Source: a virus
Length of the DNA stretch: 24,565 nt
Direction: 5' to 3' (one strand)
IMG/VR virus record: IMGVR_UViG_3300012954_000073
Location: 1 to 24,565 of that record
Below are positions 1 through 21,638 of this stretch, piece after piece; position 1 is the first letter of the stretch; every line of letters starts with the position of its first letter. The position numbers and the translations under genes are program-made. A model generated the notes under the pieces. That model was not told the origin of the DNA. It ran no database searches and saw only the letters and a list, made by a program, of their open reading frames with translations.

Positions 1-652
1 GATTACCAGTTTGAAAATTACTATTAAATTCTATTGTTACACTTTCATTTAATTTTTTATCTATAAGAGTTTGTAAAAATTTTAAAACAGGCTTAACAAC
101 ACTAGGTTCGCCGCCTGTAAAATATACCCTAGACCCAGGTTCTACTGTATCTAATAGTATTTCGAGATCCTGATCATTGTAAGGAGTTGTAAGATTTTTA
201 TTCTTTACCCAATCATATATTTGTTTATAGTGACTCATGTGATCACTTGATCTTTTTACCTCATCGTTTATTAAACTACTGCTTTTAGGATTACACGTAA
301 CACAACCTAAATTACATTTATTACTAAGACGTAAATCAATCAGATCGTACCCAATAGTTTTTAAATGATCTAGTTCTATGTTATCTTTTTTATATTTGCT
401 TTTATAGTTTTCTATTTCTCTAAGACGCTTACTACTGCCATTTGCTTTTTCATTCTTTTCGCAATCCCAACATCCTTTATGGAACTTGTCATTTAAAAAA
501 TCTTGTTCCATTTCTTTCCATAGTTTACTAGTCTTGTACTCTTGTAAAGATCCATGAAAGGAATAAAGCTGGTCATATCTACAACACGGTCTATAACCGC
601 CCGAAGGATCAGTTGCTATTCCATTGTAAATCAATGGACACATCTTATTCAT
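1..652 (-). CDS. Radical SAM protein with N-terminal SPASM/twitch-like cysteines (3' end cut off by window edge)
   Basis: I translated the stretch left of the PP-loop gene by hand on the minus strand. It is open from an ATG at 650-652 to the window edge (about 217 residues), so the C-terminus is missing. Seen: Cys5, Cys23-Cys24 and Cys61-x2-Cys64, then the radical SAM signature Cys113-x3-Cys117-x2-Cys120 and a GGEP motif at about 180-183 (YFTGGEP), the usual SAM-binding loop. The order of cysteines matches three other genes here (2911-4287, 4280-5599, 5596-6996). Known of the family: the CxxxCxxC motif binds a 4Fe-4S cluster that cleaves S-adenosylmethionine to a 5'-deoxyadenosyl radical; SPASM/twitch cysteines bind auxiliary clusters. 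Its substrate is unknown. The start overlaps the upstream stop by 8 bases (ATGAATAA), which suggests translational coupling. A second in-frame ATG lies at 641-643. Family call is firm, exact start less so. Confidence 0.88.
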   Translation of the reverse strand, partial: MNKMCPLIYNGIATDPSGGYRPCCRYDQLYSFHGSLQEYKTSKLWKEMEQDFLNDKFHKGCWDCEKNEKANGSSKRLREIENYKSKYKKDNIELDHLKTIGYDLIDLRLSNKCNLGCVTCNPKSSSLINDEVKRSSDHMSHYKQIYDWVKNKNLTTPYNDQDLEILLDTVEPGSRVYFTGGEPSVVKPVLKFLQTLIDKKLNESVTIEFNSNFQTGN

Positions 653-1304
653 ATCTGCCGAAACCCCAATACCTTTCACAACAAAACCAACATTTATCTT
701 CACAGTGTTTGCTGAAATCGTCAGTAAATGTTTCGCAACTTCTTGTTAATGGAAATAAATCATCAAGCACACCAAAATATTCATACAACTCTTTTACACC
801 CTTTTTATCAATGTTAATTAAAGGTCTAAATATTCTGTTATCTAAAACTGTCTCTCTATATTTTCCAGCACTCCTATCATCAGCTGGGCCAGGTTGAACA
901 ACAAAACTATCTGCAATATCCTGTGGTGGATTTTTTGTAATTCCTACAAAATGACAATCAATTTGTTTATTCTTGTAGCAATTATCTACCACTGTCTTTT
1001 GTACATCAGCATATGATTCAGGATGATAATTGACTCCGGTAAAATGTTTACCAAACTTAATGCCTGGAAATTTTTCTTGCATATAGAATATAACTTTCGT
1101 TGCAAATTGTAATTGAAATGCTTTACCTGCGTGACAAACTGTAATAGGATTAATTTCACAAATTTTTTCATTATCATGAATATATTTACAAAGCATATAC
1201 AAAACTATTGCACTATCTGCTCCTCCACTTAATTTTATTCCTATATTTTTATAATTTTCTGGTAAATCAAAAACTATTTTATCTTGTGTGTTTTCTATTA
1301 TCAT
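645..1304 (-). CDS. PP-loop ATPase (ATP pyrophosphatase family), QueC-like layout
   Basis: This 219-residue protein has the PP-loop signature SGGADS at residues 26-31, close to the N-terminus, as in ATP pyrophosphatases that adenylate a substrate (QueC, TilS, PAPS reductase, asparagine synthase-type enzymes). The C-terminus carries a cysteine group, Cys190, Cys201, Cys205, Cys208 and Cys209, spaced much like the zinc site of QueC (C-x8-C-x2-C-x2-C) but not identical, and the total length is close to QueC. The gene lacks other 7-deazaguanine genes as neighbours (no FolE, QueD or DpdA seen), so I do not call it queC. It sits between two radical SAM genes, overlapping the upstream one by ATGA (1301-1304) and the downstream one by 8 bases. 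A role in activating a carboxyl or carbonyl group for amide or thio transfer on the same substrate as its neighbours is an inference. Confidence 0.8.
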   Translation of the reverse strand: MIIENTQDKIVFDLPENYKNIGIKLSGGADSAIVLYMLCKYIHDNEKICEINPITVCHAGKAFQLQFATKVIFYMQEKFPGIKFGKHFTGVNYHPESYADVQKTVVDNCYKNKQIDCHFVGITKNPPQDIADSFVVQPGPADDRSAGKYRETVLDNRIFRPLINIDKKGVKELYEYFGVLDDLFPLTRSCETFTDDFSKHCEDKCWFCCERYWGFGRYE

Positions 1305-2359
1305 AAATTTTCTCTCACTGTATTTTTTCCGTATCCACTGCTGAATTCAAATTTGTTTCCGCAAGTCCTTCCACAAGTATATATTCGCTTGTACTTATTT
1401 GATTGATCATTCCAGGATCTATCTAAATATGTTGCAAAAAACTCGTGATTCAAAACATTCCAACCGTGTTTACGCATGTCATTAAAGTTTGCTCCATAAA
1501 TTTTATATATGTGATCAAAACTTTTTCTTTGCGGATTACTTGGTCCAAAATATGCAGGCGCTCCCATCCAAGTGCAAGGCCATAATTTCATTTGCATATC
1601 TATAAAAACACTTTTTTCTTGCTTGTATTTGCAAGTAATCGGTGTCTGTTCTATGTATGTTTCAAAGCTATTGTATTTTCTTTTAATTTCATTCATATCT
1701 TTTTGATTATGATTGTCTTTTTTGTCTTTTACTACTGTGCCTTTTTTTGTTTTTATTTGTTTTTGTTGTTGTTCTGCAAATCTACCAGTGTATTTTGCGT
1801 TAAATTGTTTGAAACCCATATCTGTTGCAATTTTTTTAGCTTCTTCTATTTGATGGTAGTTGTGTTCAAACTCGATAAAATACCAACGTGCATTTCCTCC
1901 AGCATCTATAAATGCTTTTGCATTTTCCATTATCTTGTCGAAGTTGCTGTTTACTCTGTACAAGTGGTTTGTATCTGCTAATCCGTCTATGCTAAAGTTT
2001 ACAATGATACGGTCACTCTTTTGTGCAAGGTCACGCCACCATTGTTTGCTCCTGGCGCTTCCGTTCACAGCCATCTTAAACTCTTTGACTCCTTTCTTTA
2101 TGCTGTAATCTATACAATCGTCAAGTGTAGGGCTTGCAAGACTGTCACCAAAATTTCCACAGTGGAATAACTTAACAGTGTCCTTTACAAATGGTTCAAG
2201 TATAATCTTATAGTCATCTAGTGTTGTGTCATCGATAGGCATGTAAGGATTAAGTTCAGTTTGACTACCGTGAAATCTTGCACATTGAGGACAGGCAAGT
2301 TGACACCTGCTAGTATGATCCATTTGTATAGTTTTTATTTGATCAATGTCAAGAAACAT
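1301..2359 (-). CDS. Radical SAM/SPASM-like protein with GNFGD variant motif
   Basis: This 352-residue protein has the radical SAM signature Cys19-x3-Cys23-x2-Cys26 near its N-terminus, a GNFGD motif at 68-72 where most relatives have GGE(P), a conserved SIDGL at 123-127, and C-terminal cysteines (243, 262, 329, 333) consistent with a SPASM-type auxiliary iron-sulfur cluster. Residues about 195-230 are a Lys/Gln/Asn-rich linker. It is clearly a paralogue of the protein at 7005-8072: both share SxDGLxDTNHxYR, FEHNxHQ and KxTGRF or KYTGRF segments and a lysine-rich insert at the same place. SPASM radical SAM enzymes often modify peptides or proteins, but the substrate here cannot be read from sequence. 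Translation is probably coupled: 11-base overlap with the gene upstream (2349-2359) and ATGA overlap with the gene downstream. Confidence 0.88.
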   Translation of the reverse strand: MFLDIDQIKTIQMDHTSRCQLACPQCARFHGSQTELNPYMPIDDTTLDDYKIILEPFVKDTVKLFHCGNFGDSLASPTLDDCIDYSIKKGVKEFKMAVNGSARSKQWWRDLAQKSDRIIVNFSIDGLADTNHLYRVNSNFDKIMENAKAFIDAGGNARWYFIEFEHNYHQIEEAKKIATDMGFKQFNAKYTGRFAEQQQKQIKTKKGTVVKDKKDNHNQKDMNEIKRKYNSFETYIEQTPITCKYKQEKSVFIDMQMKLWPCTWMGAPAYFGPSNPQRKSFDHIYKIYGANFNDMRKHGWNVLNHEFFATYLDRSWNDQSNKYKRIYTCGRTCGNKFEFSSGYGKNTVRENL

Positions 2360-2924
2360 CTATGCTCTCAAATCTTAAATTCCTATAAATTTGTTTTACA
2401 TCGCACGTTGCATTCCATCTATAGGCTCCGAATTTAATAAAAGGTCCTCCGCCGTCAACCAAAATCAAGCCTTTAACTTTTTTTGAATAAGGTTGTTTGT
2501 CAAATGCAAATTGAATAGACACATATTCCTTTTCTACTTGTATTTTGGCTTCAATATGTAGTTTTCCTGTATATGTTCCTACAAATAAGTCTTGATTAGA
2601 AGAGGTATGTATAATTATTTCGCCTCTTATTACTCGTATTGCGACAGGTGGTCTACCGCCTCTACGATTATCATGAATTTGAAATAAATGAAAAAGTTCT
2701 GCATGAATTAGTTCATCACTAATTGTTTCAACATCAGCAGACCAAACGTAATTACCTAGCTCTAGTATATCAGATTTTACTTCTTGTCTTTCCTTAAATT
2801 CATATGATCCTTTTAAAGGAACATCGTCGTCTGGACACAATCCTACATCACCCTTTTTGAGGTTAAATTCAAAATAATCTTTTTCTTGTATCCATCCTTC
2901 AACACCGCAATCAGATTTGAACAT
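2349..2924 (-). CDS. Polysaccharide-lyase-like jelly-roll protein (tentative)
   Basis: This 191-residue protein has no signal peptide or membrane segment. Its pattern of segments resembles heparin-lyase/PL20-type beta-jelly-roll proteins: a QIHDN stretch at 82-86 followed by RPPVAIRV at 91-98, then FIKFGAYRW at 162-170 and IYRNLRF at 179-185, which correspond to the QIH, PPxxL/I, KxGxYR and xDNVR/F-type segments I associate with those families. This is recognition by eye only. The protein is short for a complete lyase domain (the missing part would be N-terminal), so it might only bind glycan. It lies inside the radical SAM operon, overlapping both neighbours (14 bases at 2911-2924, 11 bases at 2349-2359). 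A glycan-related role would fit the glycosyltransferases upstream. Confidence 0.5.
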   Translation of the reverse strand: MFKSDCGVEGWIQEKDYFEFNLKKGDVGLCPDDDVPLKGSYEFKERQEVKSDILELGNYVWSADVETISDELIHAELFHLFQIHDNRRGGRPPVAIRVIRGEIIIHTSSNQDLFVGTYTGKLHIEAKIQVEKEYVSIQFAFDKQPYSKKVKGLILVDGGGPFIKFGAYRWNATCDVKQIYRNLRFESIDVS

Positions 2925-4287
2925 TTTCCGTATCCTTTAGGAGTTCATATAACTCCGGAATAGATTCTTCTATATTATGCCCTCTTATTTTATCTAACCG
3001 TCTAGTTGCTTGCCAAAACATAGGTAATGCTTCACTAAAATCTTTTGCATACATATAATCTACGTATTGGTCTAATAATCCTACTGCATCTCTTCTACTT
3101 GCTTCTTTGCGTTTTTCAGTCCAATCAGTTTTATCAATTATTTCTAATAATCTTGGTTTATAATTTTCATATTTTTGTTTGACATGATCTTTGGCCCATT
3201 TAGGTAACATCCTTATATTATAAAACTTAGGTCCGTGTAACGGATGTGGTGTTATGATAGGGCGCCATTCATCGTCATTTACTCTTGGTATTTTGTTTAA
3301 TAATATCCACTCCATATATTCAGGAAAATGTAACACATTGAATACATTAATTGTAGCGGCAATCCAAACTTTAAAATTGCCTTCGGCTTTACTGACTTTT
3401 AATAAATTTTCATGAATCTTTTCGAACCTACTCGGAGGTCTCATATAATACTGTATATCTCCTACACCATCGACACTTGCTCCAATATTAACTTGTTTAA
3501 AGTGTTTCCATATATCCCAGGCACGTTGTGGAATATTTGTCATGTTGCTATTATATTCAACAATAATATTTTTTGCACAGTCTTGATCAACACATTTTTG
3601 TAGAAACTCATAGTGTCGATCAATCATCAAAGGCTCTCCGCCGACTATGTATAGCTTACGTATTTCTGAAATATTTCTATCCATTTGTACCCAGTAGTGA
3701 TCACTTTCGTGCCAGTTGTACAGATCAGTTTCTGGTTCATATTTTCCCTTGGCGTTTTTAACAAGTTTTACTTTTCCATGACTGTCTTTATAACTATCGC
3801 CCCATAGTTTAACTTGATCTTCATACCACATACTACTATCAGTAGGACCACACATACGGCATTTCAAATTACATAAATTACCAAAGCGTACATCATAGAA
3901 GCTACAGTTAATTTCATCTTCGCGTATAGTTCCGTCTATATCTGTTTTGGATAAAAGATCATCCCAATCAAATTCACCTCTTTCTATCCATATTTTGTTT
4001 TCGTATTCTATACGTGCATTCATTCCAGAATCCACTTCAGTTTGACATCTTACACATTCGGGATGCCATTTACCTTCCATCATGTATTTTCTTATTTCTT
4101 TTGATAATTCACTATTACGAACTTTTTTAAGGTCAGCTGTACGTGCATTATATTCTCGACCATCTTCGTCACGTAATATTCCGCCTGTTGGTCCATGTTG
4201 TGCTTGGCAACATACACGAATGTCACCATTAGCTCTAAGACTTTGACTCATCCAAGGAACAGGACACAATGTTTGAGGTTTATTCAT
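2911..4287 (-). CDS. Radical SAM protein with N-terminal SPASM/twitch-like domain
   Basis: This 458-residue protein starts with a cysteine module: CPVPW (Cys8), Cys26-Cys27, and Cys78-x2-Cys81, the layout usual for a SPASM/twitch auxiliary-cluster domain but placed before the core. The radical SAM core follows with Cys139-x3-Cys143-x2-Cys146 and IVGGEP (GGEP 216-219), then ASVDG near 270-273. The last ~215 residues have no cysteine beyond those of the core region, so no C-terminal auxiliary cluster is evident; the tail ends with an RGHNIEESIPELYELL segment that resembles the tails of its two neighbours. Paralogues: 4280-5599, 5596-6996 and the partial gene at 1-652. It begins inside the stop of the upstream gene (ATGAATAA, 4280-4287) and overlaps the next gene by 14 bases. 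The family is secure; the substrate is unknown. Confidence 0.9.
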   Translation of the reverse strand: MNKPQTLCPVPWMSQSLRANGDIRVCCQAQHGPTGGILRDEDGREYNARTADLKKVRNSELSKEIRKYMMEGKWHPECVRCQTEVDSGMNARIEYENKIWIERGEFDWDDLLSKTDIDGTIREDEINCSFYDVRFGNLCNLKCRMCGPTDSSMWYEDQVKLWGDSYKDSHGKVKLVKNAKGKYEPETDLYNWHESDHYWVQMDRNISEIRKLYIVGGEPLMIDRHYEFLQKCVDQDCAKNIIVEYNSNMTNIPQRAWDIWKHFKQVNIGASVDGVGDIQYYMRPPSRFEKIHENLLKVSKAEGNFKVWIAATINVFNVLHFPEYMEWILLNKIPRVNDDEWRPIITPHPLHGPKFYNIRMLPKWAKDHVKQKYENYKPRLLEIIDKTDWTEKRKEASRRDAVGLLDQYVDYMYAKDFSEALPMFWQATRRLDKIRGHNIEESIPELYELLKDTENVQI

Positions 4288-5599
4288 TTAGATACTCCAG
4301 ATGAGGGAAAGTTTTCCAATAGTCTACACCACGTAAGTCGTTTAGTTTAAGATAGTATTCTTTTGCTTTTTTATTTAAAATATTATCTATTCTAGTATCT
4401 GCAGATAAGGCTTTAATCAATCCTTGTATAGTCTTTGTTTCTCTATTTTTGTGTTTACTATTATTGCATAACCAACTTTGTTCAATAAATTTTTTCAAAT
4501 CTTCTATTTCCTGTTGGCGATATTTTAAAGGCACAAGTTCATGCCGCATCCATTCTTTACCACGTACACTTGTAAATCCTAAATGAAAACGTTCATTATT
4601 AGTCCTAGCACACATATTATCAAAATATTCTAACATTGGCACAAGGCCTACACAGTTTAATGCTTGTAGGCAAGTTTGTGTAACCATTTCCCATCGATCA
4701 TGCAAATTATTTGAATTTTCAATGCTATTAATTACACTATCCCATTTAGTATGGTAACGTATCAATTCATCTTTTTCTTGTCCTGCATCAATACTAAAAC
4801 GTAATAATCCGCCTTTGAAATGATTTAGTAAATCAATTATTTCATCAGTAATTAGGGTAGCATTTGTGCTTATATCTAAGCTAATATTTTTTGCAAAGTC
4901 TGTACGTGCAATTTCCCAAATAAAATCTATACTGTGCCTATCTGCAAAAACTTCTCCGCCTCTAAATTCCATATATAAAACATGCTCAAGATTTGTCATA
5001 ATTTGTTCTCGAAAGAATTTGCTTTGACTGAGATATTCTTCTCCTGAACGCTTGGCAATATCAAGACTACCTTGCATTTGATTAGTCATTTTATTGCCCC
5101 ATTTAGAATATTCTTTGTACATCATACTACTTAAATTAGGAGAACACATCACGCAACTAAGATTACATTTTGTACTAAGCCTAACTTCCCACCATTGAGG
5201 CATGACGTCTACATAACCATTTGCATCATAATATTTTTTTAGCAAAGGTTTCACACGTTCATAAAATCTTTTATTTTTACCTGTGCGTTTACTTCCAAAT
5301 CCGCTATTTTCCATTCTAAAGCAAAAATCACAATTTGATATACGTTCGCCATTTAGCATTTTCATGCGGAAATCACGCATAAATTTACCATTCCATAAAT
5401 CTTCTATTTTATCTTTACTAAGATTATATACGTCTGTATTGCTGGAATAATTTTCATCTGTAATTTCGTCAAGTGTCATTTCTTTTGGAATACCAAAATC
5501 TATACCTTCGATACTACAACATACTCTTGCATCTCCTTTTCCTCTAGTATTAAGTTGCACAAAAGGAACTATGCAAAAGTTTTTCTCTTTTACATTCAT
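4280..5599 (-). CDS. Radical SAM protein with N-terminal SPASM/twitch-like domain
   Basis: I place the start at the ATG at 5597-5599 (439 residues), not at the further upstream in-frame ATG ending at 5647. The chosen start is preceded by AAGGA with 6 bases spacing, overlaps the upstream stop as ATGA (5596-5599), and puts the conserved FCIVPF segment at the N-terminus as in its paralogues. Seen: Cys9, Cys27-Cys28, Cys90-x2-Cys93, then the radical SAM signature Cys145-x3-Cys149-x2-Cys152 and RGGE with GGE at 214-216 (followed by V, not P). The C-terminus has RGVDYWKTFPHLEYL, matching the RG...P.L tail of the two flanking paralogues. Function: auxiliary-cluster radical SAM enzyme of unknown substrate. 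Compared with its sisters it keeps a few scattered cysteines after the core, with no clear cluster pattern. Confidence 0.9.
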   Translation of the reverse strand: MNVKEKNFCIVPFVQLNTRGKGDARVCCSIEGIDFGIPKEMTLDEITDENYSSNTDVYNLSKDKIEDLWNGKFMRDFRMKMLNGERISNCDFCFRMENSGFGSKRTGKNKRFYERVKPLLKKYYDANGYVDVMPQWWEVRLSTKCNLSCVMCSPNLSSMMYKEYSKWGNKMTNQMQGSLDIAKRSGEEYLSQSKFFREQIMTNLEHVLYMEFRGGEVFADRHSIDFIWEIARTDFAKNISLDISTNATLITDEIIDLLNHFKGGLLRFSIDAGQEKDELIRYHTKWDSVINSIENSNNLHDRWEMVTQTCLQALNCVGLVPMLEYFDNMCARTNNERFHLGFTSVRGKEWMRHELVPLKYRQQEIEDLKKFIEQSWLCNNSKHKNRETKTIQGLIKALSADTRIDNILNKKAKEYYLKLNDLRGVDYWKTFPHLEYLNE

Positions 5600-6996
5600 A
5601 CAATATCCTTTAAGATAGGAAATACCTGCGGAAACTTTTCCGTCCAACCACGTTGCTTGTTGATAAGATTTAGATATTCTTTTGTTTCAGGAAGCCTAGC
5701 ACTCCAATCTTCAGAATTCATAAAGTTAATAATACCTTTGTATCGCTTCATACCATAAGGAGCAGCAAGCCATTGCTCCTTAGTAATGCCTGCTTCTTGT
5801 ACACCTGTAAACAGTTGCCAATTTTCTTCTAGCCAAGGATAAAATTCGTTTTCATATTTGTCTGTAACCTGTTGCTTTATATCTTGTGGCAAAACTTTTA
5901 CATTCAATTGTGGAGGCCAATATGCAAAGTGCATGTTAATGCCGCCGGCTCCTAAAGGCCATTTGTTTAATTTTTTAAATCCTTGCTGTACTTTCCATTG
6001 TACAAACTCAGGAATATATGCAACATTTAGTGCCATGATTGTTGTTGCTGTTGTAACTTCAACCTGCGGTGCTGTGTTGTCTAGCATATGGAACACACGC
6101 TCTTGGTGCTCCCAGTTGCTAGGATAGCGTATGTAATTGTTTTGTTCACCATACGCATCAATGCTATAATGAAAACGCACACGTTTAAAATGGCTCCATA
6201 ACTCTGGTAAATCTTTACGCCATTCTACTGCATTTGAATTGTATCTAAGTTCTATACCTTTTGCATGTCCGCGTTTAATACATTCTTCTAATAGTTCGTA
6301 ATGTTCTTCAATGATAAGACTTTCACCACCTGCAAAATACAGCTGATACATGTGCGGAATCTGATCCATAAGATCGTTCCAAAAACGTGGGTTGTTTTTG
6401 TGCCAGTTATAGCTTGCTCCGTCATTACGACCTTTGTTTTTCCATTGACTTGTGTGCTTTAATTTCTCATTTTCTATTTTTGGATAGATCTCTTGCCATT
6501 CTTTGATCCATCCTGTTGAGTCGTGCGGTGAACACATGACACAAGCAAGCTGACACTTTGAACCCATACGCAAATCGATATAACGGATCTTAGGAGGAAT
6601 AGTACCATCTTCCTTGGTTTCGTCAACCAACTGCTGTAGATCATATCTGTTACCCCAATATTCAGTTTCCCAGTTACGTTTACTTAAATGTCCTGCATCT
6701 TCTTCTTTGTAACACTTTAAACAACTAGCAGGTTTTTCACCACGTAACATCATTTTACGAACATTACGCATATAACCACTGTTCCATGCTTCTTCTAAAG
6801 TTGTATGATTAAAGTTAGCAGGTATGCCGTCATCATTTTTAACAACACCAACTTCTCCGCCGCCAATTTTTTTATTTGAATCTGGGTCTTGGACTGAACT
6901 TGCATTTGATGTACAGCAAGTTCTCATTTTACCGTCAGGTCTACTACTTAGGTGTAACCAAGGTAGAGCACAAAATGTAGGGGAAATATCACTCAT
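5596..6996 (-). CDS. Radical SAM protein with N-terminal SPASM/twitch-like domain
   Basis: This 466-residue protein shows the N-terminal module most clearly: FCALPW (Cys9), a DGKMRTCC segment (Cys27-Cys28), a LEEAWNSGYMRNVRKMML stretch and Cys92-x2-Cys95. That is the order seen in classical SPASM domains (PW, pDG, CC, eiWns, lR, CxxC), which are normally C-terminal to the core. The radical SAM signature is Cys148-x3-Cys152-x2-Cys155, and the SAM-binding loop reads AGGES (GGES 223-226). A SIDAYG segment follows. No cysteine is seen in the C-terminal half, and the tail RGWTEKFPQVFPIL matches its paralogues. It is separated from the gene upstream by 8 bases, the only non-overlapping junction in the operon, and overlaps the next gene by ATGA. 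The substrate is unknown. Confidence 0.92.
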   Translation of the reverse strand: MSDISPTFCALPWLHLSSRPDGKMRTCCTSNASSVQDPDSNKKIGGGEVGVVKNDDGIPANFNHTTLEEAWNSGYMRNVRKMMLRGEKPASCLKCYKEEDAGHLSKRNWETEYWGNRYDLQQLVDETKEDGTIPPKIRYIDLRMGSKCQLACVMCSPHDSTGWIKEWQEIYPKIENEKLKHTSQWKNKGRNDGASYNWHKNNPRFWNDLMDQIPHMYQLYFAGGESLIIEEHYELLEECIKRGHAKGIELRYNSNAVEWRKDLPELWSHFKRVRFHYSIDAYGEQNNYIRYPSNWEHQERVFHMLDNTAPQVEVTTATTIMALNVAYIPEFVQWKVQQGFKKLNKWPLGAGGINMHFAYWPPQLNVKVLPQDIKQQVTDKYENEFYPWLEENWQLFTGVQEAGITKEQWLAAPYGMKRYKGIINFMNSEDWSARLPETKEYLNLINKQRGWTEKFPQVFPILKDIV

Positions 6997-7004
6997 ATTA
7001 CTAC

Positions 7005-8072
7005 TTATTTGAACTGTTCAGTGAACAGATCAAACTCGGCGCCACACTTAGTTGCACACACTTTCAGCTTGCCTTCCGAACAACTAGGTTTATTCCAACT
7101 GTTTTGTATTTGATCAAATATACCTGTATCAAAAACTTTTTGTAAACCACGTCGTGCATCTAAAGCACGTTTATCAGGAATAAAGTCCCATATCTGTTCT
7201 ACCTTAGGATCCTTATGCCACCATTTGTACATTCTCCCAGCAGTCCAACAACATGGCAATGCTAATCCTTCTGCTGTAATAAACATACTGTTGTCTTTTT
7301 TAACCTTACATATAACAGGAGTTGCATCATAGTAAGAATCCATTGATCCGTACTTTTTTAGAATTGTTTCTTGTTTGGTAAGAGCTTTGTTTTGATATTT
7401 TACTTTTGGTTTTTTAAGCTCTGCAGAGTCTTTGCCTTTGCGATCCTTGGCTTGATGGCTTTCTTTTTTATTTGTTTTTGCATCTACAAATCTGCCTGTT
7501 TTCTTTTTCATAAACTTTTCAACACCCCATTCATTAGCAAGTGTTTCTGCTTCTTCTACTTGATGTTGATTATGTTCAAAAATTAAAAAGTCCCAACGAG
7601 CTCTGCCACCAGCATTTATAAATGCTCTCATGTTACGTTCTACATTGTCCCAAACCACGTTCTGCCTGTATATGTGGTTAGTATCCCTAAGCCCGTCCAC
7701 ACTAAAAATAACAGCACCCATCCTACCATAAACTTGTGCCAGTTCTGTCCACCACTGTTCATTTTTTGCTCCTCCGTTTGTGTTCATACTCAGCCACATA
7801 TTTGGATTGTGTTCTCTAAAATAACGAAATATTTCTAGTGTGTCTTTTGCTACTATAGGATCGCCTAAGTTGCCACACATATACATTGTTTTTAATTGTT
7901 TAATAAAGTTTGACTCAAAAATCTGTTTACAATCTTCTAAGCTAAGTTCATCTAGATTAATGTGAGGGTTAATGCCTTCACCATTCATGTTACGGTCACA
8001 CATAGGACATGCTGCTTGACAATTTTGCGTGACTTCAAGATGTATTGCTTTTATATCTTTATACTGATACAT
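7005..8072 (-). CDS. Radical SAM/SPASM-like protein with GNLGD variant motif
   Basis: I choose the ATG at 8070-8072 (355 residues) over the in-frame ATG ending at 8135, because the extra 21 residues have no counterpart in the paralogue at 1301-2359, the chosen start is preceded by GGAAAGAAG, and it gives the short overlap typical of this operon (14 bases, 8059-8072). Seen: Cys18-x3-Cys22-x2-Cys25, GNLGD at 67-71 in place of GGE(P), SVDGL at about 124-128, a Lys-rich insert around 198-240, and C-terminal cysteines 255, 274, 275, 331, 339 and 343 consistent with SPASM-type clusters. It is the sister of 1301-2359, with FEHNQHQVEEA and KKTGRF conserved. Like that protein it should generate a radical on an unknown, possibly peptide, substrate. 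Confidence 0.9.
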   Translation of the reverse strand: MYQYKDIKAIHLEVTQNCQAACPMCDRNMNGEGINPHINLDELSLEDCKQIFESNFIKQLKTMYMCGNLGDPIVAKDTLEIFRYFREHNPNMWLSMNTNGGAKNEQWWTELAQVYGRMGAVIFSVDGLRDTNHIYRQNVVWDNVERNMRAFINAGGRARWDFLIFEHNQHQVEEAETLANEWGVEKFMKKKTGRFVDAKTNKKESHQAKDRKGKDSAELKKPKVKYQNKALTKQETILKKYGSMDSYYDATPVICKVKKDNSMFITAEGLALPCCWTAGRMYKWWHKDPKVEQIWDFIPDKRALDARRGLQKVFDTGIFDQIQNSWNKPSCSEGKLKVCATKCGAEFDLFTEQFK

Positions 8073-8991
8073 CTTCTTTCCATTTTGGTATACGTAAATC
8101 TGGCACACAATTACAATGCGGTGTATCACAAACAATATTAGTAATTTTTTTGATTTTTTTATCTTTGATATTTCCTAAAGGATTTTTTTTGGCTGTTCCA
8201 CATTGTGCTCCGTATACTGTGCCGTCATGCCATACTAATAATCTTTTGCTACCTATTTCACATCTCCACCCTCTAAAATCATTAGTTTTATTAGTAATCA
8301 TCTCGTGTGCATGTTCAATAGCTGTCCATTTTCCGTCAATATACAAGTGTGCTGATACAGGTATATCCATTTGAGAGGTCCGTGTTTGGTTCATCTTGAA
8401 ATTTTTCATAAAGTTTAAATCTTTTTTTCTATATTCTATGGAGGAGATTACACTTCTATCAATAATTGGTTTTACAAATACCGATGCATTGACTTTGTTT
8501 TCTTTCAACTTTTCAGCTACTTGTTTTGCATATTTTGTATCTTTGAACATTATAAGCACAGTAAGTTGCACTCTATTTCCTAACAACTTACAAACTTCTA
8601 CAATATGATCAATATCTGCAAATTCCAAATGTAAGCTAATTGTTACCCTATGTATATTATTACAATCCTTTAAAAATTTTTTCCACCAACGAATTGTTCT
8701 GCTACCATTTGTAACAATAGCTGTATACCAACTAGGATGCAATCCATTAAAAAATTCTGTTAGTTTAGGCCATAAAGTAGGTTCGCCGCCAGTTAATGTT
8801 AACATTTTATCATTAGGATTTATATCTGTATGCACAAAATTCCAAAATTCTTTTGCAACATCTACGTCTGGCCATCCGCTCGACCCGTCATTTAAAGTTG
8901 GTGTGCAGTAAGAACATTCGTAGTTACAAACATTACTTAACACCCATTCAGCCGCCAGTGTTTTCGGATAATCATTACTAATACTATACAT
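8059..8991 (-). CDS. Radical SAM protein, shorter type with C-terminal cysteine cluster
   Basis: The ATG at 8989-8991 gives 310 residues; a GTG two codons earlier (8995-8997) is possible but would overlap the AGG ribosome-binding sequence. The radical SAM signature is Cys22-x3-Cys26-x2-Cys29 (SNVCNYECSYC), with TGGEPTL (GGEP 68-71) and TNGSR following, a textbook core. The C-terminal part has Cys244, Cys264, Cys288, Cys293 and Cys295, a pattern able to bind one auxiliary 4Fe-4S cluster. It differs from both other radical SAM groups here: no N-terminal cysteine module and a normal GGEP. The start codon overlaps the stop of the 75-aa gene upstream (8984-8991), and its own stop lies in the next radical SAM gene. 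The substrate is unknown; the upstream small protein is one candidate partner (inference). Confidence 0.88.
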   Translation of the reverse strand: MYSISNDYPKTLAAEWVLSNVCNYECSYCTPTLNDGSSGWPDVDVAKEFWNFVHTDINPNDKMLTLTGGEPTLWPKLTEFFNGLHPSWYTAIVTNGSRTIRWWKKFLKDCNNIHRVTISLHLEFADIDHIVEVCKLLGNRVQLTVLIMFKDTKYAKQVAEKLKENKVNASVFVKPIIDRSVISSIEYRKKDLNFMKNFKMNQTRTSQMDIPVSAHLYIDGKWTAIEHAHEMITNKTNDFRGWRCEIGSKRLLVWHDGTVYGAQCGTAKKNPLGNIKDKKIKKITNIVCDTPHCNCVPDLRIPKWKEDVSV

Positions 8992-9211
8992 TTTCACCTA
9001 CTAATCGTATTTCTTTACCTGGACCTACTTTGCTAGGTAGATCTCCGTATTCATTTATGTACCATTCTATTACTGCACGATACCAATTATGACTATTATG
9101 ATGTGCTTTTTGATTGAATTGCCAAATATTATTGTTTGTAGCTTGCATAGTACTTAATGCCCTAGCACTTTCTTTTTGCAGTTCTCTAAGGGATAAATTA
9201 TTTATATCCAA
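8984..9211 (-). CDS. Small protein of unknown function (75 aa)
   Basis: I do not recognise this protein. The reading frame starts with TTG at 9209-9211; a stop codon lies two codons upstream in frame, so no ATG further out is possible. An internal ATG at 9146-9148 would leave about 54 residues. GAGG lies about 10 bases before the TTG. The N-terminal half (SLRELQKESARALSTMQ) looks helical; the middle is rich in Asn, His and Trp (NNNIWQFNQKAHHNSHNW); the end reads GPGKEIRLVGENV. It has no cysteine and no signal peptide. It overlaps the 910-aa fusion gene by 14 bases and the radical SAM gene at 8059-8991 by 8. Position directly before a radical SAM gene makes it a possible substrate or partner, but nothing in the sequence proves this. 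Confidence 0.6.
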   Translation of the reverse strand: MDINNLSLRELQKESARALSTMQATNNNIWQFNQKAHHNSHNWYRAVIEWYINEYGDLPSKVGPGKEIRLVGENV

Positions 9212-11930
9212 TTCTCATATACCTCGTGTATTTTTCTAGTTCAAGTTTGCCCTCATACAATAAATTATTCATAGGACTCATATCTGCAAATTCATCTAAA
9301 TTATGGACACAATTTACATGTTCCTTTACATCAAAAAAGTTATTGCTTTGCAAAATTAATAATTTTCCTTTTGGTATTTTATCATACCACTCGGAAAAAT
9401 TATCTATATGTTCACAACTTGTATTAATAATTGTATCTGGACTATCTTTTAATTGCTCCTCATCACCGTTGCTCTTAATTGTAATATATTTGTTTACATT
9501 ATAGTTGATTTCTTTAATATCTTTAGTGCTTGCCTTAAACTTCCAATTATCTAAAACTAAATCTTTATTGAATATCTCAGCAATTTTCCAAACACTAGAG
9601 TCTATATCAAAACTTCTAAATGAATCAAAAGGTATATTTGCTTCTACAATTAAAGGAACAATAGTAGCATACCAACCTGCACAGAGATATACATTTCCTA
9701 GTTTAACTTTTGTGTCAGCTAATTTATCAACCAACCATTTTTTACTAGCTATTTGTCCTCTACTTAAACAATCTAAATCAAATTCATCTTCAGACAATGT
9801 TTTTAATGGCTTGACTAAAGAACTTGAAGTGTATTTTTCAAGAACTCTCCAAAGAGCATGCCTATCATTTGCAAGTATTTTAAATTCATCAGCTATGTCT
9901 GGTAGCAAACGAGCAATGCTATATAAATTTTCTTCTATAATAGCTTTACGTAATTCCTCATCAACTTCTAATAATCTAAAAATACTGTGTATATTTTCTT
10001 CTACCACAGCTTTACGCAGTTCTTCGTCTGCATTTGTAATTCTAAAAATACTATGAATATTTTTTTCCAAAACTGCCTTACGTAAATCTTCATCTGCATC
10101 TGCAAGTCGAAAAACACTATGCAAATTTTTTTCAATCACTGCTTTACGCAAATCTTCATTGTTTGCTAGTTTGAATATACTAGATAAATCATTACTATTG
10201 TACATTCTCCGTAAATTTTCTATTTTGTCTCCGTACAGTAATTCAAACCTGTCTAATATATCAACTATAAATGTGTCAAGATCGGTTTGTGTTTTTGCCG
10301 GAGCAGCAAATGTTTTTTGTTTAGCTGAGTCGGTAAATGTTTCTTGATTGTTAAACTTTTCTTCTAACCAATCAAAATCATTTATTAACCGAAGATCAGT
10401 CCCCCTAGAAAGGCCAAACTCCATACCAGCGGAAGCACCCGCCAGAGCATAGTTCCCATATAATCTATCGTGTCCCACGGTTGTCCAAGTTTTGAGTCTT
10501 GCATTTGTTTCGTCCTCCTTTTGTCGATCAATTACTTTGCTTGCTAGTTTTGCACATTCTCTAAATGCACTTTTCCATGTTTCAAATGGTCCTGTATTGA
10601 ATTTAGTGATACAACTAAGTTGTTTCATTACTTTGAAATTTCTGCTTATACTTGTGTTTACATCTACTTTATTTTTATCTACCTGTTTTGTAAGTTCAAC
10701 AGGCAATAGTTTTACTCCACCGTATCCATATTCTAAATCATTAATAGGATTAATACTTCTCCAAACATGCACTGCGTCTAAATCAGTGTCAGGCACTACA
10801 TAATCAAAATTAAATCCATCTACTATTTCAGCATCACCGTCAACTACCCACATCATTTCTGTATCACAAATCTCAGCAGCCGCAATGTGTGCATTGGCTA
10901 TTCCTTTCACGCCATGGATACGTTTTGCCTTTGGAAATCTTTCTAATAATTTTTTATAGTTTTGATTGCTATTTTGTTCTCCATATGAAATCATTACTAT
11001 GTCATAAGATCCTGCTTCGGTCTTGGCTATTGAATTGTGTACAGGACGTACAGGACTTTTATAAATTTGTTTGAAAAACTTACTTTGTCCTTCACTAAAC
11101 GGTTCTGGATCAATCGGTGCATCTAATTTAGATTTAAGTTCCAATCCTAACTCATAAGCATAATTTATAGCATCTTTTTCAGATATATTTTTCTTTTCAC
11201 TCCACAACGTGTTTAGATATTCAAAGTCTCTAACATTTATATGATCCCAGTCAGTACACATTGTTTTGTAGTAACCTTCTCTGGCTCCATAAATTGCAAA
11301 TAAACCGTTAGGAACATCAGTGCCGACCATACACCATACATATAATCTATTCAAATTTTTCCAGTGTATTTCTTTCATCTCTTTGATGGAAGGCTTCTCT
11401 CCCTCAAGAAGACACATTTTAACACCTTCTCTGAATCCAGCTCTCCATGCTTGATGGGGAGTGTAGTTGTTTTCTACAACACTCATACAATCATTTAGCT
11501 GAACATAATCAAGATCCCAACAAAAATCTACTTGTGCTTTTATATTATCTTTATCAGCGTTTTCATGTGTTTTCATGTCAAGGACTGCTTGCCTATCCCA
11601 ACATTTTATTCCTCCGTTTCCGTACATTAATCCATTGATTGTATTGTATCCTGCCCAACTAATTACTTTCCTCGTAAGATCTGTACCTGCAACGAACTCT
11701 ACACTTTGATTTATAAATTCAGGATTGACAAGATTGTCACCATCTACAGTAATAAACCTCTGTGTTTCTGATAATTCTGCACATGCTTTATGAGCTGCAT
11801 CAGATCCTTCTATACCATGTATACGTTTTGCCCAAGGCACCTTGGTTAAGAGATCAGCATAATTTTTTTCAGCATTAGGTTCGTCATAGCTTAGATAAAT
11901 GACATCACAATCTGGTACACTTATTTTCAT
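9198..11930 (-). CDS. Multidomain protein: two glycosyltransferase-like domains, 22-aa repeats, methyltransferase-like C-terminus
   Basis: This 910-residue protein has at least three parts. Residues 1-230 and about 308-520 are copies of one domain: SYDEPNAEKNY/SYGEQNSNQNY, AKRIHGIEG/AKRIHGVKG, VDGDN/VDGDA (DGD at 63-65 and 364-366), YGNGGIK/YGYGGVK. The DxD-type motif after a hydrophobic strand suggests a GT-A glycosyltransferase fold, possibly degenerate in one copy. Residues about 570-680 are near-perfect 22-residue repeats. Residues about 725-910 look like a class I methyltransferase domain: GNVYLCAGWYATIVPLI (motif I-like), SFDID about 25 residues later, and a DTIINTSCEH segment. It begins with the ATGA overlap at 11927-11930. 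Role: probably adds and methylates sugars on a target surface or molecule made by this operon (inference). Domain calls are by eye; the glycosyltransferase assignment is more secure than the methyltransferase one. Confidence 0.75.
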   Translation of the reverse strand: MKISVPDCDVIYLSYDEPNAEKNYADLLTKVPWAKRIHGIEGSDAAHKACAELSETQRFITVDGDNLVNPEFINQSVEFVAGTDLTRKVISWAGYNTINGLMYGNGGIKCWDRQAVLDMKTHENADKDNIKAQVDFCWDLDYVQLNDCMSVVENNYTPHQAWRAGFREGVKMCLLEGEKPSIKEMKEIHWKNLNRLYVWCMVGTDVPNGLFAIYGAREGYYKTMCTDWDHINVRDFEYLNTLWSEKKNISEKDAINYAYELGLELKSKLDAPIDPEPFSEGQSKFFKQIYKSPVRPVHNSIAKTEAGSYDIVMISYGEQNSNQNYKKLLERFPKAKRIHGVKGIANAHIAAAEICDTEMMWVVDGDAEIVDGFNFDYVVPDTDLDAVHVWRSINPINDLEYGYGGVKLLPVELTKQVDKNKVDVNTSISRNFKVMKQLSCITKFNTGPFETWKSAFRECAKLASKVIDRQKEDETNARLKTWTTVGHDRLYGNYALAGASAGMEFGLSRGTDLRLINDFDWLEEKFNNQETFTDSAKQKTFAAPAKTQTDLDTFIVDILDRFELLYGDKIENLRRMYNSNDLSSIFKLANNEDLRKAVIEKNLHSVFRLADADEDLRKAVLEKNIHSIFRITNADEELRKAVVEENIHSIFRLLEVDEELRKAIIEENLYSIARLLPDIADEFKILANDRHALWRVLEKYTSSSLVKPLKTLSEDEFDLDCLSRGQIASKKWLVDKLADTKVKLGNVYLCAGWYATIVPLIVEANIPFDSFRSFDIDSSVWKIAEIFNKDLVLDNWKFKASTKDIKEINYNVNKYITIKSNGDEEQLKDSPDTIINTSCEHIDNFSEWYDKIPKGKLLILQSNNFFDVKEHVNCVHNLDEFADMSPMNNLLYEGKLELEKYTRYMRIGYK
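9893..10157 (-). repeat. Tandem 66-bp (22-aa) coding repeats in the multidomain gene
   Basis: Within the 910-aa protein, residues from about 592 on repeat with an exact period of 22: units begin at E592, E614, E636 and E658 and share LRKAVxEKNxHSIFRL. A weaker unit (LRRMYNSNDLSSIFKL, from about 573) precedes them and the last unit degenerates. The DNA shows the matching 66-base period but has diverged, so this is not a recent expansion. The repeats look alpha-helical and may act as a spacer or binding surface between the glycosyltransferase-like and methyltransferase-like parts. Confidence 0.9.
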
Positions 11931-12481
11931 ATCATTTCCACATGTATAAATTCACTGTTTCTTGAAGCAGTAAAAATATCACATTTTTTATCACAATTGA
12001 ATTCTATTTTAAATTTTTCATTATTAAAAAATTTTTCAAACTCAACTTTAAATTGTCCAATATAAACTCTATTATCATTTTTTTCTGTCAGATAAAATAG
12101 TTTTTCTGTACCAAAGTATCCATCGTTGCTCATATAAAATTGTTTAGTATCATCGTCTGTATTTGCATAACCATACCATAATCCCTTATCTTGTATTAAA
12201 TGAAACAAATTTTTATCTTTTGATATGACATCTGTAGTTTTTATGGGAAAAATATTAGGATTATTAAAATCTTCGTCAGTATGTTTTACAACTTTAATTA
12301 ATTTATATTTGTTCGGGCTACTTAAATCAGGCACTACTTTCCATTCTGTCAGATTCTCTTCTCCGTCAATAAATTTTTTAGCAAGTATTTTTTCAACCTC
12401 GATACTAAGAACATTTGTAGATGGGGTATTAGTAATACCAGAAATAGTTCCAGTTTTTTCGTCAAATTCTACAAACTGCAT
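11927..12481 (-). CDS. Protein of unknown function (184 aa)
   Basis: I do not recognise a family. The protein has no signal peptide, membrane segment or cysteine motif (only two cysteines, close together near residues 167 and 171). Its sequence is rich in alternating hydrophobic and polar residues, suggesting a mostly beta structure, with segments such as LTEWKVVPDLSSPNKYKLIK and GKFKVEF-like strands near the end. The start ATG at 12479-12481 overlaps the upstream glycosyltransferase gene by 13 bases, with GAAGG about 9 bases before it, and the stop overlaps the fusion gene by ATGA. It lies between glycosyltransferase-like genes, so an accessory or binding role in the same process is plausible, no more. 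Confidence 0.7.
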   Translation of the reverse strand: MQFVEFDEKTGTISGITNTPSTNVLSIEVEKILAKKFIDGEENLTEWKVVPDLSSPNKYKLIKVVKHTDEDFNNPNIFPIKTTDVISKDKNLFHLIQDKGLWYGYANTDDDTKQFYMSNDGYFGTEKLFYLTEKNDNRVYIGQFKVEFEKFFNNEKFKIEFNCDKKCDIFTASRNSEFIHVEMI

Positions 12482-13299
12482 TTTTCTAAACCTTCAATAA
12501 CTTTTTTTGTTAAAAATTCACTTTCAACATAGTGAAATATATTATTTTGAATAAAATTATCTACAAATAAATCACCATTATTATTTACAGACCAATTTAC
12601 TTTATCAGTCCATTTATTGGGTACATGTTGCCAATTTTGTAAATTAGGCTTCATATGAACAAAGTTAATAAAAGAATTAGCATCTGTAACTTGTTTTTCT
12701 ATGCCTAATATTTTACATGCAATGGCTGAACTTACATCAACACTGTAAAAATTTTGTGTTTTATTAGGAATGTATATTTTATAAAAATCCTGCCAATTTT
12801 CTGTAATTAATTTTAATAAATTAAAATATTTTTGCGAAAATAATGACTTGTTAAAATACCAAAAACCATTGTATAAATTAGGTAAATTATTTGCAACAAA
12901 AGTTTTTCTATGCCAAGTACTTGTAAGCTCTTCTCCTCTATATGTAAAAACTTTACTTGTAAAGAACAAATCATAATTTTTTAAATAATCCCACCAATGT
13001 GTAATATCACGCATTACTAACATATCAACATCCATTACAATAGTTTTTTTGTATGGCGATAAGTCATATATTTTATATCTATTTTGAAATTTAATTTCGT
13101 GTCCTTGTGCTAAGTCCTCATTGATAGGAATAATTTTATCAAACAATATTTTATATTTGTTAGGCACTTTATCATTTGTAATCAAACTGATTGAAGTATT
13201 TTTGTTGAATTTTGTGATACTTAGTGCTAACATACATGCTTGTTGAATGTAATCAGTGCTACTGTTATTCTGAGCTACAAAACAAAACCCCTTACTCAT
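12469..13299 (-). CDS. Glycosyltransferase, GT8-like
   Basis: This 276-residue protein begins FCFVAQNNSSTDYIQQA, followed by a Rossmann-like half and YDLSPYKKTIVMDVDMLV with the DVD motif at 90-92. A DxD after a hydrophobic strand, preceded by a YxLSPYK segment, is characteristic of GT-A enzymes such as GT8, where it binds the metal and nucleotide sugar. Further on, NGFWYFNKSLF and a late FVHMKP segment (HxKP-like, as in GT8 proteins) support the call. It lacks a signal peptide and would act in the host cytoplasm. It is a tandem paralogue of 13296-14123, whose stop overlaps its start as ATGA (13296-13299), with AGGA 7 bases before the ATG. Donor and acceptor are unknown. Confidence 0.82.
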   Translation of the reverse strand: MSKGFCFVAQNNSSTDYIQQACMLALSITKFNKNTSISLITNDKVPNKYKILFDKIIPINEDLAQGHEIKFQNRYKIYDLSPYKKTIVMDVDMLVMRDITHWWDYLKNYDLFFTSKVFTYRGEELTSTWHRKTFVANNLPNLYNGFWYFNKSLFSQKYFNLLKLITENWQDFYKIYIPNKTQNFYSVDVSSAIACKILGIEKQVTDANSFINFVHMKPNLQNWQHVPNKWTDKVNWSVNNNGDLFVDNFIQNNIFHYVESEFLTKKVIEGLEKCSL

Positions 13300-14123
13300 G
13301 ACAAAATCCTATCTATGTTTGTAGATAAATCAAACTTATTCATAATATGAATATTTACATCTTCCAAAGAACATACTGTATCACTATTCATAATATTTGT
13401 TGTGTTAAGCAAAAAATTATACTTTTCATTATCAATACTAAGTAAGCGATCTTTATCAGTACTAAAAAATAATTTTGTTGGTAATTCCTGTTGTGGATTG
13501 CCTAATAAATTTAAAGCAATAGCAAATGCAAAATCATTTCTAAAATTTTTTCCTACCATCTGATATTGGATCCTATAAAAATTCCAATTATCTCTAATAT
13601 GTTTTATAAGTTCAAACAGTATTTTTGAGAATTTGTTTTTACTAAAATAAAACACAGTAGCCCAATACATATCAATAGTAGTTTCACTAATTCTTTGTAA
13701 AGTAGAATCATTCCTTTGCGGATTACAATCTATAATATCTTTGTTTATTTTAAATTGATTGTCATCAAAGCATTTTAGTAAATTAGAATTACCTACTAAA
13801 AAGTCTGTATCTAACACAAGTGTATTATCAAATGGACTTATATCATATGCTTCGCATCTAGTAAAATTATTCCAAGGAAGTTTTTCAGTTGTGTACCCGT
13901 TCGAAAATAATCTTTGTTGATTACTTTTATAATCATTATCAATTATAACATCAAACAGATGTTGATAATCAAAAAAGTGCTTTTCTAAATAATTTTTAGA
14001 ATTAGTTGCTATTGCAACAGATAAATTTAAATGTTTTTTAATTTTTATTGCACAGTAAATTGCTTGTTTTACGTAATCAATTTTATGATTGTTATGTGCA
14101 AATAATAATACACCGTTATTCAT
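13296..14123 (-). CDS. Glycosyltransferase-like protein, paralogue of the next gene
   Basis: This 275-residue protein resembles 12469-13299 along its length: VLLFAHNNHKIDYVKQA at the N-terminus, CEAYDISPFDNTLVLDTDFLV with DTD at 105-107, a VFYFSKNKFSKILFELIKHI segment, and a late NIHIMNKF segment in place of the sister's FVHMKP. The DTD keeps the DxD form, so it may be active, but the C-terminal HxKP-type motif is weaker. It has no signal peptide. Translation starts at ATG 14121-14123, overlapping the upstream stop by 8 bases (ATGAATAA). Two adjacent diverged copies suggest two different transfer steps or acceptors (inference). Confidence 0.75.
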   Translation of the reverse strand: MNNGVLLFAHNNHKIDYVKQAIYCAIKIKKHLNLSVAIATNSKNYLEKHFFDYQHLFDVIIDNDYKSNQQRLFSNGYTTEKLPWNNFTRCEAYDISPFDNTLVLDTDFLVGNSNLLKCFDDNQFKINKDIIDCNPQRNDSTLQRISETTIDMYWATVFYFSKNKFSKILFELIKHIRDNWNFYRIQYQMVGKNFRNDFAFAIALNLLGNPQQELPTKLFFSTDKDRLLSIDNEKYNFLLNTTNIMNSDTVCSLEDVNIHIMNKFDLSTNIDRILS

Positions 14124-14451
14124 TTAAGAATTTCTCTACAGATCTTTTTGTTTTGATCTGATTATACTGATCTAGATAATTTTGCTTTGCAGTAGTATAT
14201 TGATCTATAATTTTATTAGTGAAATCTTCAGTATCCACTTCAATAGGTAGAGAATTATCATCTATTATAATTTCTGTATCGTATTTTAAAGTTTTGCAAT
14301 ATGAGATTAAACTTGTAGTAATTGTAAATTTCCCACCATTATAGAAAAACACACATTTTTCGTAAAACTTTTCATTCAACAATCTTTTTTGATTATTGAG
14401 TGTTGTCATGTATTGAGAAAAATCTAGTGCTTGCTGTAGTCTTTTATCCAT
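14116..14451 (-). CDS. Small protein of unknown function heading the operon (111 aa)
   Basis: I choose the ATG at 14449-14451 rather than the one at 14461-14463, because GGGAG (14457-14461) sits 5 bases before it and the upstream ATG would lie inside that ribosome-binding site. The protein is soluble, rich in Lys, Gln, Asn and Tyr, with helical N- and C-terminal stretches (RLQQALDFSQYMTTLNNQKR; QYTTAKQNYLDQYNQ) around a short beta-rich middle (KCVFFYNGGKFTIT). It has two cysteines and no recognisable motif. It is the first gene after the sigma70-type promoter and overlaps the glycosyltransferase gene by 8 bases. The helical ends may form a coiled coil. Function unknown. Confidence 0.72.
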   Translation of the reverse strand: MDKRLQQALDFSQYMTTLNNQKRLLNEKFYEKCVFFYNGGKFTITTSLISYCKTLKYDTEIIIDDNSLPIEVDTEDFTNKIIDQYTTAKQNYLDQYNQIKTKRSVEKFLNE

Positions 14452-14456
14452 AATAA

Positions 14457-14461
14457 CTCCC
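14457..14461 (-). promoter_or_regulatory. Ribosome-binding site deciding the start of the first operon gene
   Basis: On the minus strand GGGAG is followed by TTATT and the ATG at 14449-14451. The 5-base spacing is good and favours this ATG over the one 12 bases earlier, which overlaps the site itself. Confidence 0.7.
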
Positions 14462-14474
14462 ATAGTATGTATAG

Positions 14475-15471: not shown

Positions 15472-15497
15472 CTTTAATCCTTATATACAAACTTACT

Positions 15498-15505
15498 TAT
15501 TTAAA
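15498..15505 (-). promoter_or_regulatory. Late-promoter-like octamer (TTTAAATA)
   Basis: On the minus strand TTTAAATA lies 26 bases before the ATG of the 319-aa gene and overlaps the upstream stop. It differs by one base from the T4 late promoter TATAAATA and does not fit NATAAATA exactly, so it is the weakest of the three such sites here. Confidence 0.35.
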
Positions 15506-17009: not shown

Positions 17010-17030
17010 TTATTACCCCTATTATAAGTT

Positions 17031-17038
17031 TATTTATC
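17031..17038 (-). promoter_or_regulatory. Late-promoter-like octamer (GATAAATA)
   Basis: On the minus strand GATAAATA lies 21 bases before the ATG of the 502-aa fibre gene, in a 36-base gap. It matches exactly the NATAAATA form reported for late promoters of T4-like cyanophages and differs from T4 TATAAATA by one base. Confidence 0.6.
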
Positions 17039-17045
17039 GCAATTC

Positions 17046-21613: not shown

Positions 21614-21630
21614 TTTCTATCCTACATTGT

Positions 21631-21638
21631 TATTTATC
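21631..21638 (-). promoter_or_regulatory. Late-promoter-like octamer (GATAAATA)
   Basis: On the minus strand GATAAATA overlaps the stop codon of the large structural gene and lies 17 bases before the ATG of the 204-aa gene. It is identical to the octamer at 17031-17038 and matches NATAAATA. Confidence 0.55.

Follow-up and report, generated by a model that had tools for sequence, protein, structure and literature searches.

The window analysed here is a virus record of 24,565 bases (IMGVR_UViG_3300012954_000073) that carries, next to phage tail genes, a long operon rich in radical S-adenosylmethionine (SAM) enzymes. All the genes under study are on the minus strand. Transcription runs from the tail genes (o21 down to o16) through o15, o14, o13, o12, o11 and o10 (s75) into the radical SAM series o09, o08, o07, o06, o05, o03 and o01, with o04 standing between o05 and o03 and the PP-loop gene o02 between o03 and o01. 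From 645 to 14123 adjacent genes overlap by 4-14 bases, in agreement with the “mostly overlapping” arrangement described in an earlier note on this DNA, and the sole exception is an 8-base gap at 6997-7004. Due to this packing, the genes from o15 onward probably constitute one transcriptional unit. The seven open reading frames (ORFs) with a CxxxCxxC motif that the earlier note had listed were all found, six of them complete and that at 1-652 cut by the window edge. The motif occurs in eight proteins of the window, against a mean of 0.06 and a maximum of 2 in 2000 shuffles, which excludes chance as the source of this number. In the eighth, the PP-loop protein o02, they form a C-terminal QueC-like metal motif and there is no radical SAM core.

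Profile searches establish the identity of these enzymes, the Pfam Radical_SAM model matching all seven (E 1.5e-4 to 1.9e-9), with o05, o06, o08 and o09 above the curated cut-off. Their division into three architectures, already noticed from the letters, also holds. The first, with an N-terminal twitch/SPASM arrangement, comprises o01 (1-652), o05 (2911-4287), o06 (4280-5599) and o07 (5596-6996). The NCBIfam model N_Twi_rSAM (NF033640, cut-off 170 bits) is matched by o05 with 362 bits, by o06 with 275 bits (together with a SPASM match of 24.6 bits, over its cut-off) and by o07 with 422 bits. The truncated o01 reaches 151 bits over profile positions 2-215 and looks like a fragment of a member of the same family; its 217-residue reading has CxxxCxxC at residue 113 and N-terminal cysteines at positions 5, 23, 24, 61 and 64. 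The family to which o05, o06 and o07 belong is named by domain make-up alone, and the model description gives no substrate. The second architecture displays C-terminal SPASM-type cysteines and CGNxGD in place of GGE. It includes o03 (1301-2359; CGNFGD; Radical_SAM E 2.8e-5), a variable family that matches phrog_21308 at E 1.7e-19, and o08 (7005-8072; E 1.9e-9), which serves as a marker of the core described below. The third is represented by o09 (8059-8991; E 6e-9), a short enzyme that has GGEP and C-terminal cysteines and also belongs to a variable family. None of o03, o08 and o09 reaches the NF033640 cut-off.

The relatives of o07 are 67-85% identical, and C9, C27, C28, C92, C95, C148, C152 and C155 are invariant in 23 sequences; those of o08 share 66-82% identity. 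GGE is usual in radical SAM enzymes at the position held by CGNxGD in o03 and o08, and the replacement is invariant in the o08 family. The extra cysteine of this motif may have mechanistic relevance. All matches of the window radical SAM proteins to peptide-maturase models are far under cut-off, and PDB sequence profiles of o07, o08 and o14 gave no match (E <= 0.01 or 0.1). The NCBIfam models that o09 resembles (viperin, QueE and MoaA) were all matched below cut-off. The assignment of o09 as a prokaryotic viperin or defence protein was rejected (NF038283, 42.3 bits vs a cut-off of 180), as was that of o02 and o09 as QueC and QueE (19.2 vs 22 bits for QueC, 34-35 vs 206-260 bits for QueE), several contigs also having a distinct folE with a QueE-like neighbour.

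Scans of IMG/VR returned 101 stretches with relatives of o07 and 350 viral stretches with relatives of o08; 158 loci from 137 contigs were retained, merged by contig name and with near-identical populations kept separate. When all their ORFs are clustered, the consensus order is tail fibres, o15, o14, o13, c22 or c23, c1, c4, s75, o08, o07 or R14, and then a shuffled series. The families c1 (GT-A) and c4 (methyltransferase) correspond to the two parts of o11, which are separate genes in most relatives. Where o08 is flanked by at least 9 kb on each side (42 loci), c1 and c4 are each present in all 42, as is either o07 or R14, a count that is partly a matter of selection, some loci having been retrieved using o07. 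Of the same set, 36 loci have s75, 23 have o13 and 18 have tail genes. The N-twitch enzymes o07 and R14 are present together in only 3 of the 137 contigs and therefore look like alternatives. The number of radical SAM genes per locus (up to about 21 kb) ranges from 2 to 12, with at most 10 within 10 kb, and whole contigs have 5-21 matches to the N_Twi model (E <= 0.001; partial matches of other radical SAM families included). Amino-acid-changing difference (pN) is 0.12-0.18 for s75, o08, o07 and R14 and 0.40-0.54 for o13, the PP-loop protein and the shell radical SAM clusters, values used solely as a relative measure of protein conservation, with synonymous sites near saturation and the shell clusters mixing paralogues. 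The similarity of o08 and of c4 follows that of the major capsid protein (r 0.84 and 0.82, nine contigs), and thus the core looks largely inherited with the phage. Far from rarely co-occurring, a possibility that the earlier note had left to a neighbourhood comparison, these genes form a module in which a conserved core is ringed by interchangeable radical SAM and tailoring enzymes.

The largest protein of the operon, o11 (9198-11930; 910 residues), consists of tandem GT-A domains (residues ~1-530), a helical linker and a class I methyltransferase-fold domain (~700-910). Its AlphaFold models have a mean predicted local distance difference test score (pLDDT) of 85.5 for the whole protein and 87.8 for the first 530 residues, in which two GT-A-like domains are seen. 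The top PDB match of the c1 model in Foldseek was the chondroitin polymerase K4CP (E 1.2e-6), followed by heparosan synthase 2, the peptide S-glycosyltransferase SunS and others; K4CP and heparosan synthase 2 are bifunctional polysaccharide polymerases. VIA-align superposed residues 304-446 of o11, in the second of these domains, onto GT-A folds with Z 9-12, and the conserved D65, D364 and D366 of c1 are located where GT-A enzymes have DxD. The fold alone does not fix the reaction of c1, since nucleotidyltransferases of related fold score similarly. The C-terminal c4 part matches class I methyltransferases, with Z ~16 to the N-methyltransferase NodS and many others.

Directly after c4/o11 (110 of 132 cases) comes s75 (o10, 8984-9211), a conserved core protein of 75 residues, 24 of which are invariant in 29 sequences and spread across most of its length. 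Its PDB matches are short and only to designed proteins and antibody chains, none of them informative, and it possibly acts as an adaptor or carrier. On the other side of o11 lie o12 (11927-12481), without a match in family profile searches and at the slot held by c22 or c23 in relatives; o13 (12469-13299), a GT8/glycogenin-like glycosyltransferase (profile match to glycogenin, E 2.1e-7); and o14 (13296-14123), a putative glycosyltransferase with a conserved D-T-D at residues 105-107 that adjoins o13 in 55 of 55 members. The operon is headed by the small conserved protein o15 (14116-14463), found ahead of o14 in 50 of 50 cases. Within the radical SAM series, o04 (2349-2924) is an accessory protein from a cluster with 10 members that gave no match in family profile searches, and o02 (645-1304) is a PP-loop ATPase, distantly QueC-like, whose SGGxDS motif and four C-terminal cysteines are invariant in 21 relatives. 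The o02 family is a candidate for an amide-forming enzyme of the island.

Counted in contigs out of 137, the shuffled shell includes PP-loop proteins (36), UDP-glucose/GDP-mannose dehydrogenases (34), short-chain dehydrogenases/reductases (28), pyridoxal phosphate (PLP) decarboxylase-like proteins (24), nitroreductases (21), arginine-deiminase/amidinotransferase-like proteins (20), DegT aminotransferases (19) and carbamoyltransferases (18). 2-Oxoglutarate (2OG) oxygenases, a cytidylyltransferase-like protein and a fatty-acid desaturase were also seen. The PLP, SGNH and most 2OG names were given by inspection of the sequences, with no profile.

Upstream of the operon, o16-o19 (14512-20995) are tail-fibre and tail-collar genes of a T4-like phage (Collar domain at E 7e-20 in o19; virion and tail PHROGs), and o20-o21 (20999-24564) are virion-associated genes (o21 with a virion structural PHROG) that provide a link to jumbo T4-like phages. 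The closest counterparts of o20 (53-56% identical) are encoded by Sinorhizobium phage Phosso (469 kb) and Agrobacterium phage Atu_ph07 (490 kb). T4-type gp23 is present in 12 of 24 long related contigs, five of which are longer than 200 kb. The carrier of the island is a marine T4-like myophage, and probably a jumbo phage. In two tail clusters, 21 of 24 and 29 of 43 members (50 of 67 combined) have the exact ATAAATA core of T4 late promoters in the 50 bases ahead of the gene, against an expectation of ~0.4%. In the window, GATAAATA at 17031-17038 and 21631-21638 (minus strand), just upstream of o17 and o20, fits this core. When one mismatch is allowed, TATAAATA shows no enrichment within the window by itself (89 occurrences, 97 expected); the only enrichment is that of exact ATAAATA ahead of tail genes across the loci.

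Strong N-twitch matches (E <= 1e-40) are confined in the survey to viral contigs and 1 of 190 alphaproteobacterial genomes, a metagenome-assembled genome (MAG) whose matching contig carries the core module. A scan of prokaryotic genomes with o08 gave three loci only, on MAG contigs labelled Rickettsiales, Gammaproteobacteria and Neisseriaceae (L167, L168 and L169), which are probably mis-binned phage contigs because all carry the core module.

The earlier note had proposed a phage-encoded multistep pathway that combines the radical SAM enzymes with glycosyltransferases, a PP-loop ATPase and a methyltransferase-like domain. A multi-enzyme operon of this composition draws support from profiles, predicted structures and the conservation of the neighbourhood, but it is not a fixed pathway; the observation is confirmed and its interpretation partly supported. 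That no substrate is evident still holds, and the glycosyltransferase content, together with the nucleotide-sugar genes of related loci, points to a glycan.

Tentatively, the operon is read as an island for building and tailoring a glycan, placed in the host-recognition region of a marine T4-like myophage, and a role in surface chemistry is the best reading because a fixed core of glycosyltransferase, methyltransferase and radical SAM enzymes, with exchangeable tailoring enzymes, adjoins tail fibres. A variable island lies by the tail-fibre genes o16-o19 of a T4-like genome and contains the glycosyltransferases o13 and o11, and such phage regions have been interpreted as surface-glycan or sugar-metabolite islands (PMC7029224, PMC7824862). 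From the observed gene content, co-occurrence, folds and synteny with tail fibres we infer a sugar as substrate, and the chemical steps would be as follows. The tandem GT-A domains of c1, the GT8-like o13 and, judging from its motif, o14 would transfer sugars, and the c4 domain would methylate the product or an intermediate. o08 and either o07 or R14, with s75, may make an invariant radical modification, to which the shell radical SAM, PP-loop, oxygenase and transferase genes could add lineage-specific sugar modifications, including epimerisation, dehydrogenation or deoxygenation, amide formation, carbamoylation and amidination. Variation of the shell would give each phage a different surface structure. 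The product would most likely end up on the tail fibres or virion produced concurrently, the alternative being the surface of the infected cell. With read-through from the late tail promoters, the island would be expressed while virions are assembled, a timing that slightly favours virion decoration over early conversion of the host surface.

Twitch/SPASM radical SAM enzymes acting on sugars or aminocyclitols are established, as in BtrN and NeoN. Several points nevertheless count against a glycan. Radical SAM/SPASM enzymes modify peptides at least as often as sugars. Nucleotide-sugar genes occur in part of the contigs only, and the window has none. The assignment of c1 depends on a fold match at 9-12% identity, and that of o14, which has no PDB match, on motif evidence alone. 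Most operon genes are without a late promoter of their own, late timing being assumed from read-through. Finally, the equivalent slot in Phosso and Atu_ph07 is taken by a radical SAM operon with a peptide-like target.

This last operon, of the radical SAM/SPASM type, directly follows homologous tail genes (o20-like and o17/18-like) and includes a cupin and a protein of 296-306 residues with a CHxSCHASCHxSRSRR tail, ending in CHTSCHASCHSSRSRR or CHSSCHASCHNSRSRR. The genes for the CH-tail protein (L170:24324-25244 in Phosso, L171:25062-25952 in Atu_ph07) were found in these phages only in the collection searched. With its repeated C-H-x-S motif this tail resembles a peptide target of radical SAM enzymes, which is the strongest reason to keep open a possible, if on balance doubtful, alternative: that the radical SAM enzymes act on a ribosomally made protein, which could be s75 (as scaffold or precursor) or one of the neighbouring tail-fibre proteins, and crosslink or epimerise its residues, with a hardened virion or an altered adhesin as the result. 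Among the four radical SAM proteins of Phosso, two have peptide-maturase models as their top match, with every score below cut-off, and s75, o08 and o07/R14, which lie near each other, are the most conserved genes of the marine module. However, s75 is conserved over most of its length without a hypervariable core, CH repeats of the Phosso kind are absent from the window and the 158 marine loci, the radical SAM genes of Phosso and Atu_ph07 are not closely homologous to those of the marine loci, and a GT-A protein is always present in the marine core. s75, the only small core protein in a survey of the loci that covered ORFs of at least 55 residues, is probably not the precursor of a ribosomally synthesized and post-translationally modified peptide, its 87 distinct sequences having no variable core and the marine loci no CH repeats. 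A broader form of this idea is unlikely: that radical SAM chemistry is a standard part of adhesin biogenesis in large T4-like phages, with tail-fibre-slot operons that modify a virion-linked ribosomal product post-translationally; s75 would then serve the marine phages as conserved scaffold, and in Phosso and Atu_ph07 the CH-tail protein would be the target.

Conversion of the host surface, that is, of lipopolysaccharide or its O-chain, so that superinfection is blocked, has been proposed for pelagimyophage host-recognition clusters by the authors of PMC7029224, and it could draw on the GT8-like transferase and the UDP-sugar dehydrogenase and DegT genes. It appears distinctly unlikely here, where the location and the inferred late expression with tail fibres fit virion assembly better than early exclusion. 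The carbamoyltransferases, amidinotransferase-like proteins, PLP enzymes, nitroreductases and 2OG oxygenases resemble antibiotic tailoring sets, which would suit a small diffusible secondary metabolite such as a modified amino acid or aminosugar. For the cluster of the jumbo cyanophage S-SSM6a either polysaccharide decoration or such a metabolite has been proposed (Iyer 2021, PMC7824862). For the present island a metabolite is quite improbable, as tight synteny with tail fibres is not expected of a diffusible product and profile searches matched no carrier-protein, non-ribosomal peptide synthetase/polyketide synthase or exporter family in the window.

Phages do employ radical SAM, PLP and glycosyltransferase enzymes on DNA. 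Hypermodification of phage DNA bases by the radical SAM and glycosyltransferase enzymes is nonetheless highly improbable, for although folE is present in 13 of 19 contigs, it lies with a QueE-like neighbour in several of them tens of kb from the island, o02 and o09 are under the QueC and QueE cut-offs, thymidylate-synthase/hydroxymethylase-type genes are unmatched in 18 of 24 contigs (three of them longer than 200 kb), and Tet/JBP was found in 0 of 19 contigs in a search without a positive control. These searches used PF00303, PF12851 and PF01227; PF00303 was matched in 6 of 24 contigs (5 over cut-off), which may be incomplete. The folE (GTP cyclohydrolase I) gene and the adjacent QueE-like gene, located away from the island at G003:C1:207485-208869, G024:C1:13234-13898 and others, possibly belong to a separate 7-deazaguanine pathway.

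Radical SAM enzymes perform some of biology's hardest reactions. In a virus lineage, a fixed core of them with many shuffled companions beside the genes for host recognition would offer a natural means of diversifying surface chemistry and a source of new enzyme reactions. It would also be a candidate explanation for variation in what marine phages display to their hosts or place on them. The crowding of such genes is known, but the conserved core and the cultured relatives make the island testable, and direct tests are possible because related islands exist in the cultured phages Mosig, Phosso and Atu_ph07.

The island of Mosig (Pelagibacter/SAR11 phage EXVC030M) lies between the tail fibres and VrlC, that is, in the host-recognition region. 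Homologues there include a radical SAM gene of the o03 type (E 3e-33), one resembling o09, a methyltransferase of the c4 type (E 8e-18), a carbamoyltransferase (E 5e-51), nitroreductases and a desaturase, and a sugar aminotransferase is annotated. The o03-type enzyme is apparently split (L172:14968-15934) between two annotated genes, one of 211 residues with the core and one of 112 residues with the C-terminal cysteine domain. The match to o08 is 24% over half its length. In tblastn searches of phage records, relatives of s75 and o11 were not found, and o07 was matched only in two Vibrio phages (21%).

The density of radical SAM genes, which the earlier note took to be unusual, is already known from the literature. 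The marine T4-like genome TARA_ERS488813_N000010 has 12 of them (Nishimura 2017, PMC5332604), and in the passage on them they are treated only as Fe-S protein content, without operon, core or function. In the open-access literature searched, outside which most subscription papers fall, no account was found of the conserved core, the alternation of o07 and R14, s75, the tandem GT-A/methyltransferase protein or the equivalent slot in the cultured rhizobial jumbo phages. The S-SSM6a cluster has carbamoyltransferases, a methylase, 2OG oxygenases and cupins, like the pool of the island, but is halogenase-based, and the word “radical” is absent from the main text (PMC7824862). In Phosso and Atu_ph07 the slot is shared, but no GT-A protein or s75 was seen. 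Another close parallel is the host-recognition cluster of pelagimyophages, phages in which GT8 enzymes were also reported; it has glycosyltransferases and radical SAM cassettes, and O-chain modification was proposed for it (Zaragoza-Solas 2020, PMC7029224). It is likewise variable and located beside tail fibres; the marine loci described here differ from this cluster and from Mosig in their fixed core and their far larger number of radical SAM genes.

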